A stretch of 64,000 nt of DNA. Origin: Woeseiaceae bacterium. Its GTDB lineage: Bacteria; Pseudomonadota; Gammaproteobacteria; Steroidobacterales; Woeseiaceae. The stretch covers positions 1-64,000 of the forward strand of contig JAPKEL010000007.1 of assembly GCA_028822065.1 (NCBI GenBank). The letters are read 5' to 3'. This document shows positions 30,801 to 36,886 of the stretch, piece after piece. The notes beneath the pieces are model-generated. The model was given only the letters and a program-made list of their open reading frames with translations. It was not told where the DNA came from and did no database searches. Both the position numbers and the translations under genes were made by a program. How positions within the stretch are numbered: the first letter of the stretch is position 1; each line of letters opens with the position of its first letter.

Positions 30801-33800
30801 ATGATAAATTTTCCTATACTCTCAAACAATAAAGCCAAAGATCTCAATTCTATTGGGCGAGCTATTGGCCCAAGTAACGCACTTATTCTTTATGAAATCG
30901 CAATTTCAAAAAATAACCCTGTAATTATTTTGGCAGAAAATACTCAGCATGCAGAACAATTAAAAGATGAAATAACATTTTTCAATAAAGACGATTGTTC
31001 GATTGATCTATTTCCAGAATGGGAAACACTGCCATACGATAGTTTTTCTCCTCATCAAGATATTATTTCAAATCGACTGACTATTTTAAGTAATCAAATA
31101 AAGTCGCAACGAAGAATTATTATTTTATCTGCCAGTGCTTTGCTCAATAAATTACCGCCCTGCAAATATATTAATTCTCATTCTTTATCGCTAGATGTCG
31201 GTCATGAGCTCAAACATCAAGATCTAGCCAATAGACTCGTCCATAATGGCTATCGAAAAGTTGCACAAGTTGAAGATCATGGAGAATTTGCAACCAGAGG
31301 ATCACTGCTTGATATATTCCCGATGGGCACAACAAAACCCATTAGGGTTGAGATATATGACAGTGAGATCGAATCATTACGTTATTTTAATGTAGATTCA
31401 CAATTATCGGAGAAATTAGTTAAATCGGTAGTTATCCTTCCAGCAAATGAAATCCCTCTAGATGAAGACTCCATTCGGTATTTCAGACAACGCTACAGAG
31501 AAAGATTTGAAGGTGCGCCATCTCAATCCCGAGTTTATAATGAAATTTCTAATGGCATTGCTCATGGTGGTATTGAATATTACTTGCCTTTATTTTACAA
31601 AAAAACCACAAATTTTTTTGATTATTTCAACAAAAATATTACTGTATTTGCACCTAATAATCTTGAAGAAATATTAGCTATTTACTGGGAAGATATTCTA
31701 AGTCGCTACAAATTACACGGTCATAATATCGAAAAACCTCTTCTTGAACCTTCCGAGGCATTCATTGATATCGATGCTATTAAAAAAATACTAAAAAATA
31801 AAGCTGTTATAAACTACAGCCAGGTCACTGTTAACGAAAATAAAAATACAATCAATTTAAAAACAAAACTACCGCCGCCCATTAAAATAAAAGTCCAGCA
31901 CAAAGAGCCGTCTGCTGAGTTAAAACGATTTCTAAAAAATTATAATGGCAAGATCCTTTTCACAGCTGATTCAGCTGGGCACAGAGAACTAATTTATGAT
32001 TATTTAAGTAATTTACAACTTAGTATTAAGCGTATTGAAAATTGGGCTGAGTTTTGTAAGCTAAAATTTGATTATGCTGTCACAATTGCCCCTTTTCAAG
32101 AAAGCGTCTTAATTGCAAATGCTAATATTGCAATTATCACTGAACAACAAATTTTTGGTGACAAGCCTAAACAACGCCATCATAAATACAACAACAGAGA
32201 TCCTGAGACAATTATCAAGCAATTGACTGATCTTACTATAGGCGCTCCAGTGGTTCATATTGTTTATGGTATTGGTCGATTCCAAGGTTTAATCAAACTT
32301 AAATACAGTGATTATATGGAAGAATTTCTTCACCTTGAATACGCAGAAGGAGATAAGCTTTATGTACCTGTACATGCTTTAGATTTAATATCACGTTACA
32401 CAGGCTCATCGCCAGAGCATGCTCCCTTGCATAGACTGGGCAGCGATCAATGGAGTAAAGCAAAAAAACGTGCCATAAAGAAAATATACGATGTTGCTGC
32501 TGAACTCTTGGATGTTTATGCAAGAAGAGCAGCAAAAAAAGGACATGCTTTTAATTGGCCAGAAAATGAATACCGTGCATTTGAAGCAGGTTTTCCTTAC
32601 GAAACAACCGCAGACCAAGAAAGTGCAATTTCAGATGTTTTAGAGGATTTATCTTCAAGCAAGCCCATGGATAGAGTTATATGCGGTGATGTAGGCTTTG
32701 GCAAAACAGAGGTCGCTCTTCGAGCAGCATTTGCAGTTACCCTTGGTGGAAAACAAGTTGCTTTAATGGTTCCCACGACATTACTAGCACAACAACATGT
32801 ACAAACATTTCAAAATCGTTTTGCTGATTGGCCAATTAGAATCGCAGTGTTATCTAGATTTCAATCTAAAAAAGAAATTCAAGCTTCAATTGCAGAAATC
32901 CGATCTGGTAAAATAGATATTGTCATTGGTACCCATAAAATTTTGCAACACACAAAAGATTTTTATCATTTAGGTTTAGTTGTCATTGATGAAGAGCATC
33001 GATTTGGTGTTCGTCATAAAGAAGCCATAAAGAACTTGAGAAGTGACATTGATATTCTCACACTAACAGCCACTCCCATACCCAGAACATTAAATATGAC
33101 GCTCGGTGGTATTAGAGAGTTATCCCTAATAACAACTCCGCCCGATAATCGCTTAGCGGTAAAGACATTCATTACCGAATGGCGTGATATAAATATTCGT
33201 GAAGCCTGCTTGAGAGAAATAAAGCGTGGTGGGCAGATATATTTTATTCATAATCGGGTTGAGGATATTGAGAATATTAAACAACGATTAGAAAAAATAC
33301 TTCCTGAAGTAAGCATTAAAATTGGTCACGGACAGATGCCGGAAAGACAATTAGAGGAAGTAATGCGTGATTTCTATCAACGTCGCTTTAATATGTTGCT
33401 GTGCACCACAATAGTGGAAAGTGGTCTCGATATTCCAACAGCAAATACTATAATAATAAATCGTGCCGATAGATTTGGTTTGGCACAACTGCATCAACTT
33501 AGAGGGCGTGTTGGTAGATCTCATCATCGTGCATATGCTTACCTGCTATCACCGCCCAAAAATACCATTACAGCTGATGCCAATAAGCGCCTTGAAGCTA
33601 TATGCTCATTGGAAGATCTGGGTTCAGGTTTTACTTTAGCAACACATGATCTGGAGATACGTGGGGCTGGAGAGTTACTGGGAGATATTCAAAGCGGACA
33701 AATTCAAGAGATAGGATTTTCACTTTATACTGATATGCTAGCGCGTGCAGTAAAATCAATGAAAAAAGGCGATAAAGCTAATCTCGATGAGCCTTTTAAT

Positions 33801-34232
33801 TCAGGAGTTGATATTAATTTAAGGGTACCCTGCTTACTTCCTAATGATTACGTTCCAGATGTACATCTCCGCTTAATTCTCTATAAACGCATCGCTAGTG
33901 CAAATAACGAAGAATTAATAAAAATTAAAATTGAACTTATTGATCGTTTCGGCTTACTCCCCGATGAAGCTATTTACTTACTTCGAATGAATGGTATTAA
34001 ACAAAACTGCAATATAATAGGTATCCAGAAGGCAAATCTCGATACTGAAGGCGGGTATATTCAATTTTCTGATTGCTCAAAAATAAACCCTGAAAAATTA
34101 ATCGCTATCATTAGTAGTAAGAACATATACCGTATGCGTGGCCCACAGAGATTAAGCTTCAAAACTGATTTAATCTCACCAGAGGAACGTTTTCATTTTA
34201 TAGAAACTCTTCTTGATGGACTGATAAACTGA
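30801..34232 (+). CDS. mfd: Transcription-repair coupling factor Mfd
   Basis: A DNA translocase that removes stalled RNA polymerase and recruits UvrA. The UvrB-like N-terminal region (about 1-340), the RNA-polymerase-interacting domain (about 470-540, IGAPVVHIVYGIGRFQGL), RecG-like translocase motifs and a C-terminal TRCF domain are all present. Walker A GDVGFGKTEVALRAAF is near 629 and DEEHRFG is near 731. At 1143 residues it is full length. It is followed by a csiV-type gene, the common gammaproteobacterial order. Confidence 0.97.
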   Translation: MINFPILSNNKAKDLNSIGRAIGPSNALILYEIAISKNNPVIILAENTQHAEQLKDEITFFNKDDCSIDLFPEWETLPYDSFSPHQDIISNRLTILSNQIKSQRRIIILSASALLNKLPPCKYINSHSLSLDVGHELKHQDLANRLVHNGYRKVAQVEDHGEFATRGSLLDIFPMGTTKPIRVEIYDSEIESLRYFNVDSQLSEKLVKSVVILPANEIPLDEDSIRYFRQRYRERFEGAPSQSRVYNEISNGIAHGGIEYYLPLFYKKTTNFFDYFNKNITVFAPNNLEEILAIYWEDILSRYKLHGHNIEKPLLEPSEAFIDIDAIKKILKNKAVINYSQVTVNENKNTINLKTKLPPPIKIKVQHKEPSAELKRFLKNYNGKILFTADSAGHRELIYDYLSNLQLSIKRIENWAEFCKLKFDYAVTIAPFQESVLIANANIAIITEQQIFGDKPKQRHHKYNNRDPETIIKQLTDLTIGAPVVHIVYGIGRFQGLIKLKYSDYMEEFLHLEYAEGDKLYVPVHALDLISRYTGSSPEHAPLHRLGSDQWSKAKKRAIKKIYDVAAELLDVYARRAAKKGHAFNWPENEYRAFEAGFPYETTADQESAISDVLEDLSSSKPMDRVICGDVGFGKTEVALRAAFAVTLGGKQVALMVPTTLLAQQHVQTFQNRFADWPIRIAVLSRFQSKKEIQASIAEIRSGKIDIVIGTHKILQHTKDFYHLGLVVIDEEHRFGVRHKEAIKNLRSDIDILTLTATPIPRTLNMTLGGIRELSLITTPPDNRLAVKTFITEWRDINIREACLREIKRGGQIYFIHNRVEDIENIKQRLEKILPEVSIKIGHGQMPERQLEEVMRDFYQRRFNMLLCTTIVESGLDIPTANTIIINRADRFGLAQLHQLRGRVGRSHHRAYAYLLSPPKNTITADANKRLEAICSLEDLGSGFTLATHDLEIRGAGELLGDIQSGQIQEIGFSLYTDMLARAVKSMKKGDKANLDEPFNSGVDINLRVPCLLPNDYVPDVHLRLILYKRIASANNEELIKIKIELIDRFGLLPDEAIYLLRMNGIKQNCNIIGIQKANLDTEGGYIQFSDCSKINPEKLIAIISSKNIYRMRGPQRLSFKTDLISPEERFHFIETLLDGLIN

Positions 34233-34290: not shown

Positions 34291-35862
34291 ATGATAAGAA
34301 ATAACCTCAATAACAATAGATATGATATAAGAATTAATTCACTATTTATATGCTTTTTGATTTCAATTTTTTGCAGTAATTTAGTAGCAAATGCAGATGA
34401 TGTTCAAGAAATCTATGCCAATTACTCATTAGAAATTATTATATTTAAATATCTCGATGAAGAATCTGGAGGGACTGAATTATTTGAAAAAAATATAACT
34501 CCAATCAATCCTGACAAAGAAATACAAGATATCGAAATGTTTGAAAATAATAACTCGACTCAGAGCTTATCCGATCAGGGCTTCATAAACAAAGAGCCTA
34601 GAGAAGAAGAAATAAATAGCATTGAAGCGCTCCCCTCTGACAATCAAATATTATTTAATATTATTCCCAATAAACAACTAACTCTGGGAACAGCTCATAA
34701 TAGATTGAATCGTATAAGAGTTTATCAGCCGATAATATGGAGTGGCTGGAAACAAATATTAAATACTATCGAATTAACGCCTGAAGTTAAACTAAGGCGC
34801 CTACAAAATACGCTGGGTGAATTTGAAGGTAATTTCAAATTTTACAAAAGTAATGGTGGCAAACTAAGATTGGCAGTTGATGTGAATATGCATAAAGAAC
34901 AACCAATTCATCCTATTACTTTAAATAAAAATCTCGAAGAAGACACAACACAAGATCTTCCATCTATGACAAACATCATACCAGAAACATTAAAGTATCC
35001 ACTTTCAGATGATAAAGAAATAAGGTTAGATGAAATTCGATATTTTGATCATCCTAAATTTGGAATACTGGCTAAAGTTTCAGAAATAAGCCCATTAAAT
35101 TTAAAAGAAAAAAATACAAAGATCGAAATAAAACCAGCCGCCGGTAATGTGTTTAACGAGAAGCTCTTAAAAGAAAGAAAAAATTATATCTCCGCCATTG
35201 AAAGAGGAATAGTAGGTCTTGGGAAAACTGGTAAATTTATATCCTTAATTCTTAATAAAAACGGTAGCTTTATTACTCATATTGCCGACCAACTTGCCAT
35301 TGATAAATTAAATTCTAATGAGGTTGCATACGATGCTTTTATTTATTCAGTGAATAATGGAAAAACCATAGAGCAAAATAAACTCACAATTGAAATTAAT
35401 GGGATTAATGATCCGCCGCTATCCAAAGACAAAAAGATCGTAATAGGTAGTTATACTTACTATGATTTCAGTTTAGACGATTTTTTCTTTGAAGATATCG
35501 AGGGAAATGAACTAAGTCATATTATAATTACACAATTACCGAAAACTGGGGATTTATATCTAGAATATCCATTTGGTATTTGGGCTATAAAAAGTGGTAT
35601 GCATATAACAAAAGCTGAGATTCCTTTCTTAAAATACAAGCCATCATTAACCGAAAATCTAAACTTAATGGCATTAACTAAAGATGGTAACCCAATTATA
35701 TCAATCCATTTCAAGGTTAATGATGGAGAAATAGACAGTAAAAAAGAGAATAAATTTGAATTTCAATTCCCGGTAACTAAAAACCCAGATAATACGGAAA
35801 ATAAAAATTCACTCATTAAACTCAAAAAATTCAACAATATTATCCACTTAATTCGAAATTAG
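34291..35862 (+). CDS. csiV: CsiV-family periplasmic protein fused to VCBS and cadherin-like domains
   Basis: CsiV proteins are periplasmic peptidoglycan-binding factors, usually about 250 residues, encoded after mfd. Here a signal peptide (about 15-35) precedes a recognisable CsiV core: NYSLEIIIFKYLDE near 44, RVYQPIIWSGWKQ, KLRLAVDVNM near 195, and RLDEIRYFDHPKFGILAKV near 246-264. It then continues for about 260 residues. Residues 309-376 look like a VCBS repeat (LILNKNGSFITHIAD, AYDAFIYSVNNGKT, IEINGINDPP). Residues 387-483 look like a cadherin-like tandem-95 domain (YDFSLDDFFFEDIEGNELSH, LPKTGDLYLE, FKVNDGEID). Such domains belong to secreted adhesins, so this fusion is odd. The 3' end overlaps convergent nagZ by 23 bp. 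Confidence 0.75.
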   Translation: MIRNNLNNNRYDIRINSLFICFLISIFCSNLVANADDVQEIYANYSLEIIIFKYLDEESGGTELFEKNITPINPDKEIQDIEMFENNNSTQSLSDQGFINKEPREEEINSIEALPSDNQILFNIIPNKQLTLGTAHNRLNRIRVYQPIIWSGWKQILNTIELTPEVKLRRLQNTLGEFEGNFKFYKSNGGKLRLAVDVNMHKEQPIHPITLNKNLEEDTTQDLPSMTNIIPETLKYPLSDDKEIRLDEIRYFDHPKFGILAKVSEISPLNLKEKNTKIEIKPAAGNVFNEKLLKERKNYISAIERGIVGLGKTGKFISLILNKNGSFITHIADQLAIDKLNSNEVAYDAFIYSVNNGKTIEQNKLTIEINGINDPPLSKDKKIVIGSYTYYDFSLDDFFFEDIEGNELSHIIITQLPKTGDLYLEYPFGIWAIKSGMHITKAEIPFLKYKPSLTENLNLMALTKDGNPIISIHFKVNDGEIDSKKENKFEFQFPVTKNPDNTENKNSLIKLKKFNNIIHLIRN

Positions 35863-36886
35863 ATTGTTGCAAGTGGCTATTTAAATAACTCGTAGCTTTA
35901 CTCCAATCCTTGCTATCTAAGAGCTGCTCTCTGGAGATACTTTTCTTTCCTCTTAATCTAGCTAAACGCAGCATTGATGAGGGGTTATGATAATCTTTAA
36001 GCAATTTAACGGTTTCTTCTGATCCTTCTCGATCATTACACATTATTAACATATCACAACTGGCTTTTAGGGCTAAAGTAGCTCTCTGAGTAAGATTACC
36101 GTATGCACATAAAGCCTTCATGCTGAGGTCATCACAAAAGACTACTCCGTTAAATCCCAACTGTTGGCGCAGATGATTTTTGATCCAATACTCAGATATA
36201 CTGGCTGGCATTGAATCAGTTTGTTTATATATTATGTGTGACATCATTATGGCGGAAATGGCTTGCTTTCGAATTAGGCCTTCATACGGATAGATATCAT
36301 CCAGTAATTCACTGAAATCCCTCCGATCAATTGGTAATTGTTCATGAGAATCGTTAACTACAAATCCATGGCCAGGAAAGTGCTTTGCTACCGCTTGCAT
36401 GCCGGCACTTTTTAATCCACGAGTGAATTTATAGCTCAGCTCCTCTACAATTCTTTTATCTCGATGAAATGATCTATCGCCAATAATGGCGCTTGAGCCC
36501 CAGTCAAGATCGACACAAGGTCCGAAGCATAAATCAACTCCAATAGCACGAAGCTCAGCGCCAATAATCCAGCCAATAAAAAAAGCAAGCTCATGAGCTG
36601 CAGCTTGATTTTGATCATACAAATGACCAACATGTCGCATAGATGGTATCTTTGTAAAACCATTTCGGAATCTCTGTACCCGCCCCCCCTCATGATCTAC
36701 AGCAATCAGTAATGATGGAGTTTGTATTTTTCGTATTTCACTAATCAAATTGATTATTTGGTTCGGAGATTCGTAATTTCGACTGAATAAAATCACACCA
36801 CCTACATTCGAAGATCGTAATAAGGTTCGATCAGCCGAGGTTAACTCAAGGCCTTCAATGTCCAACATAATAAAACCACGCGCCAT
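35840..36886 (-). CDS. nagZ: Beta-N-acetylhexosaminidase NagZ
   Basis: A glycoside hydrolase family 3 enzyme that removes GlcNAc from cytoplasmic anhydro-muropeptides during cell-wall recycling. Motifs are MLDIEGLELT near 7-16, GGVILFSRNY near 29-38, DHEGGRVQRFR near 63, and the catalytic loop KHFPGHGFVVNDSHEQLP near 165-182 with its Asp-His pair. The 348 residues are normal. It is the last gene of the long lepA-to-nagZ run, 97 bp after rlmD. Confidence 0.95.
   Translation of the reverse strand: MARGFIMLDIEGLELTSADRTLLRSSNVGGVILFSRNYESPNQIINLISEIRKIQTPSLLIAVDHEGGRVQRFRNGFTKIPSMRHVGHLYDQNQAAAHELAFFIGWIIGAELRAIGVDLCFGPCVDLDWGSSAIIGDRSFHRDKRIVEELSYKFTRGLKSAGMQAVAKHFPGHGFVVNDSHEQLPIDRRDFSELLDDIYPYEGLIRKQAISAIMMSHIIYKQTDSMPASISEYWIKNHLRQQLGFNGVVFCDDLSMKALCAYGNLTQRATLALKASCDMLIMCNDREGSEETVKLLKDYHNPSSMLRLARLRGKKSISREQLLDSKDWSKATSYLNSHLQQSNFELSG

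Follow-up and report, generated by a model that had tools for sequence, protein, structure and literature searches.

The window analysed here, a 64,000-nucleotide stretch of a Woeseiaceae genome (1.96 Mb, 93.65% complete), carries a csiV gene whose product continues beyond its CsiV domain into a VCBS domain and a cadherin-like domain, a fusion that is apparently undescribed in the literature searched. We favor, at a probability of roughly 0.45, the reading that an ordinary csiV was lengthened once by two adhesin-type domains, which would form a periplasmic binding or bridging arm on the CsiV-LpoA-PBP1A pathway. Five observations carry this reading: the domain architecture, its conservation across the genus, a single origin, purifying selection on the added domains, and the genes for LpoA and PBP1A in the same genomes.

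An extended CsiV protein between mfd and nagZ

The csiV reading frame is uninterrupted: its ATG lies 58 bases past the mfd stop codon, and it encodes 523 residues. The gene, its neighbors and the parts of its product are laid out as follows (window coordinates).

30801..34232, plus strand: mfd, conserved neighbor upstream of csiV
34291..35862, plus strand: csiV
34291..34398, plus strand: N-terminal hydrophobic segment, residues 1-36, a probable Sec signal peptide by sequence reading (LFICFLISIFCSNLVANA)
34399..35082, plus strand: CsiV domain, residues 37-264 (PF10972, E 4.2e-15)
35098..35208, plus strand: flexible linker, about residues 270-306 (pLDDT <50, lower conservation)
35209..35418, plus strand: VCBS domain, about residues 307-376, ending GINDPP (TIGR01965 above cut-off, pLDDT, VIA-align)
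35419..35775, plus strand: cadherin/CSPG-like beta-sandwich, residues 377-495 (profile-to-repeat matches, pLDDT, structural matches)
35840..35862: convergent overlap of csiV and nagZ
35840..36886, minus strand: nagZ, convergent, sharing 23 bases with the end of csiV

The N-terminal segment, hydrophobic by sequence reading, forms a helix at residues 14-29 in the structure model, and no lipobox was seen in reading it. PF10972 matches the next domain with 56.8 bits against a gathering cut-off of 27.4 and matches all eight genus members that carry the gene; in their alignment, RYFDHPK and W150/G152/W153 are invariant. Two more domains follow, so that the protein differs in architecture from a single-domain CsiV while the family membership of its CsiV domain is unaffected. 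The VCBS domain matches TIGR01965 (NCBIfam) over residues 312-378 with 22.7 bits against a curated cut-off of 15.5, and the same family is found in 8/8 genus members (best E 1.1e-8, E up to 1). For the third domain, the window protein stays below the gathering cut-off of Cadherin_4 (PF17803, E 0.044, 14.7 versus 25.1 bits), and matches are stronger in genus relatives (PF17803 at 4e-5, PF17963 at 3e-4); the tandem-95 repeat protein model NF012211 scores 16.1 bits, short of its cut-off of 90, with a single copy present here.

The earlier note had read this product as CsiV followed by VCBS-like and cadherin-like units, which profiles, conservation and a confident model bear out; its second half resembles both of these families. 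The boundaries it proposed hold to within about 10 residues, except that the third domain ends at about 495, not 483.

An initial AlphaFold2 run on 8 alignment rows was poor (mean pLDDT 46) and was superseded by a 52-row run with a mean of 74.9, whose rows include repeats recruited by the extension's own profile, making the model not independent of that homology. In the 52-row model, block means for the CsiV domain are mostly 77-98 over residues 121-210 and 231-270, the linker at 270-306 lies below 50, the VCBS domain reaches about 82-93 and the cadherin-like domain is mostly above 90. VIA-align places the VCBS part nearest to the split domains of the adhesins FrhA and MpPBD (Z 7.5 and 6.9) and finds CSPG4 repeats among the best matches of the third domain (Z 7.1-7.2), along with cadherins, which also rank first in Foldseek; the CsiV part has secretin-like structural matches of middling Z. 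None of the structural matches of the 52-row model reaches Z 8, so they indicate a shared beta-sandwich fold type rather than a function. Sequence searches of the PDB returned nothing at E <= 1 for the extension and chance-level matches for the VCBS part alone.

The fusion was found in a single genus

We compared the window genome with eight congeners of 1.1-1.8 Mb. The fusion occurs in 8/9 of these genomes, the exception being a 65% complete congener (G006) in which no CsiV was found at all. The earlier note had proposed to look for the same fusion after mfd in related genomes, and seven congeners carry it, each matching the window protein along nearly its full length. Named records for these loci come from Woeseiaceae genomes obtained from single cells or metagenomes: AM-375-N10, AG-319-E21, AG-313-J15, RS417, SP56, FRAM18_bin273 and MED-G80. 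Retention of the fusion in these relatives at 40-57% identity to the window protein, with all eight proteins aligning along their length, excludes an error of assembly or reading frame as its source.

Beyond the genus, matches in other Woeseiaceae are restricted to the CsiV half, except for one weak match to the arm in a 1262-residue frame (G033). An order-wide search found CsiV in 243/296 genomes; we read the tails of 20 CsiV regions among the best-scoring matches listed, mostly long frames but with two of ordinary length (256 and 308 residues) among them, and 19 end 6-24 residues past the CsiV domain. In a class-wide sample CsiV was present in 106/166 genomes, and 20 of the longest frames have tails of 1-49 residues. 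We therefore rejected the idea that other long CsiV frames represent the same fusion, since the tails of the 40 regions read span 1-49 residues with a single exception (G165). Wide sharing of the extension among other gammaproteobacteria, which the earlier note would have counted as a refutation, is not seen in those examined.

The exception is a 1.5 Mb Woeseiaceae genome from another genus (L058, G165:C7:18000-25000), whose CsiV carries an unrelated C-terminal tail of 155 residues that matches nothing significantly in Pfam and has no relative within the family. A low-complexity ELEDYELED stretch lies inside this CsiV, and LpoA is full length in the same genome.

The fusion sits between mfd and nagZ in all eight carriers, and the mfd-csiV order is kept at 22/22 other Woeseiaceae loci compared (L009-L030) as well as at all genus loci. 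Throughout the genus csiV and nagZ converge, with overlap in some genomes. The interval between them in four other Woeseiaceae examined contains minus-strand genes that are missing in the genus (named by eye rather than by profile: phosphorylase-like in 4/4, with GGDEF-like also in 2/4). Arm gain and the loss of these genes concern one and the same chromosomal spot. Fusion of csiV with a former downstream neighbor was considered and rejected: in the relatives examined the intervening genes run on the opposite strand, and a search with the extension profile detects no relative among them.

Single origin and purifying selection

In a tree of CsiV domains, the genus forms one clade with 100/100 support, nested inside the family, indicating a single gain of the arm, in the ancestor of the genus. 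The stem branch of this clade is long, at 1.61 changes per site, and every genus row has aberrant composition, leaving the exact sister unsure. On account of this divergence, the genus CsiV may have lost its peptidoglycan or LpoA binding.

VCBS and cadherin-like domains are typical of giant adhesive surface proteins. Against Woeseiaceae outside the genus, the extension profile matches just two genomes, in long unrelated proteins, and class-wide it matches repeats of giant VCBS/tandem-95-type proteins (E about 1e-20) in alignments running from the end of VCBS across the NDPP junction and through all of the third domain. Derivation of the arm from an adhesin-type gene is plausible, and recombination with such a gene, as suggested earlier, fits to that extent; no donor was found, nor did the genus genomes yield any further VCBS protein.

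The arm is under purifying selection, strongest on its VCBS domain, with dN/dS of 0.05-0.11 for VCBS, 0.12-0.23 for the cadherin-like domain and 0.20-0.36 for CsiV. VCBS is likewise the best-conserved part of the protein by mean identity (61%, versus 45% for CsiV), and mean pairwise identity falls to 32% in the linker stretch 269-298. Within VCBS, the patch YxSxIxRGIVGLxKxGxxxSLxLxxxG and the junction NDxP are invariant across the genus, as expected for a specific surface more than for a passive spacer, and the strong conservation of this one motif argues for a binding partner. This bears directly on an unlikely alternative, namely an arm that acts passively, as a spacer or for stability, and was retained without a partner of its own. 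In adhesins, VCBS and cadherin-like domains frequently act as extenders, and a flexible linker does part the arm from CsiV; spacers, however, usually drift faster, whereas here VCBS outranks CsiV itself in conservation and contains an invariant motif.

LpoA and PBP1A in the same genomes

LpoA lacks its N-terminal helical half in 9/9 genus genomes, is shortened to about 412-421 residues in those read, and matches its profile over positions 218-563 only. One example is the following, with further short-LpoA loci of the genus at L117, L119-L122, L124, L125, L127 and L153.

L118:1462-2715, minus strand: LpoA of G000, N-terminal helical half absent

The genus protein begins with a lipobox-like segment; a linker of about 40 residues follows, and the C-terminal domain that binds PBP1A is the only domain present. 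In other Woeseiaceae LpoA is mostly full length, although in G193 the match begins only at position 125 and just fragments are present in G242 and G022. A PBP1A with its OB-like domain is also encoded, and one class A PBP was found in 8/9 genus genomes and none in the ninth (G008, 52% complete). Separately, two Woeseiaceae genomes of 1.4-1.5 Mb (G193 and G218, 88-89% complete) have LpoA, and CsiV was not found in them.

Rather improbable, in our estimate, is a compensatory origin, in which the CsiV arm took over the reach or partner role of the lost LpoA half and short LpoA plus long CsiV make up one PBP1A activator. It draws on the short LpoA in all nine genus genomes next to mostly full-length relatives, on the direct LpoA binding of Vibrio CsiV, which also binds peptidoglycan (PMC4063736), and on E. 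coli LpoA, whose elongated N-terminal half is proposed to bind a further partner (PMC4111904). Yet a short LpoA is found in about 20/145 LpoA-bearing genomes of the class sample, five of which have a CsiV, each arm-less, and six genomes (G041, G338, G345, G350, G365 and G370) pair short LpoA with an ordinary CsiV, so that loss of the LpoA half needs no arm; moreover, both changes amount to one shared event in the genus, an association without independent replicate. As a general cause of the CsiV arm, LpoA truncation is unsupported in view of these six counter-examples. The coincidence of short LpoA and CsiV arm in the genus is suggestive and makes no rule, a direct swap being hypothesis only, and we regard as still more doubtful a rewired class A PBP activator in which reach or partner binding passed from the lost helical half of LpoA to an adhesin-derived VCBS/cadherin arm on CsiV, the loss of a domain in one subunit being paid for by a gain in its partner.

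Very improbable is a protein that is now chiefly a surface or released adhesin anchored to the wall by CsiV, for although its domain types derive from secreted adhesins, it is small (523 residues) with each domain in single copy and a probable Sec-type N-terminus, and no RTX family match or repeat, type I secretion signal, autotransporter feature or outer-membrane anchor was seen in it, which also makes the surface role less likely of the periplasmic or surface link proposed in the earlier note.

A model for the arm

Under the favored reading of a single lengthening into a periplasmic arm, we infer export, binding partners, calcium use and function as follows. The fusion protein would probably be Sec-exported to the periplasm, where its CsiV domain, acting as Vibrio CsiV does, would bind peptidoglycan and LpoA and thereby support PBP1A. 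On its flexible linker, the VCBS and cadherin-like pair would make a stiff binding or bridging arm, probably calcium-binding and calcium-stabilized, as judged from motif resemblance. Such an arm could hold another periplasmic protein at sites of wall synthesis, candidates being the shortened LpoA, PBP1A or another envelope protein.

If so, the arm suggests a rebuilt cell-wall control complex in a small-genome marine genus. A conserved fusion of single origin gives a natural way into the periplasmic contacts of CsiV, and its coincidence with a minimal LpoA where only one class A PBP was found provides a testable case of how the CsiV-LpoA-PBP1A pathway may be rebuilt in small genomes.

Comparison with known systems

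In fold, NDPP junction and the order of a VCBS followed by a cadherin-like unit, the arm resembles the large VCBS-repeat and tandem-95 adhesins (TIGR01965, NF012211, PF17803); unlike these giants, the genus protein has 523 residues and one copy of each domain, attached to an unrelated wall-binding domain. By VIA-align, the VCBS region comes closest to FrhA and MpPBD, RTX adhesins whose split domains (9y9w, 6x6q, 5k8g) it matches at 18-21% identity over about 82 residues and with Z of 6.6-7.5, the range of a common fold. From the split domain of these adhesins a ligand-binding domain buds out (PMC12077191), whereas the VCBS region here has no budding insertion. The closest parallel for the first half is CsiV (VC1887) of Vibrio cholerae (PF10972), with which the genus protein shares the CsiV domain, a probable export-type N-terminus and the company of LpoA and PBP1A genes in the same genome. 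Among CsiV homologues, a 2014 study reported none that carried a further domain of known function (PMC4063736). The Vibrio protein is small and consists of one domain, whereas in the genus described here two beta-sandwich domains follow CsiV.
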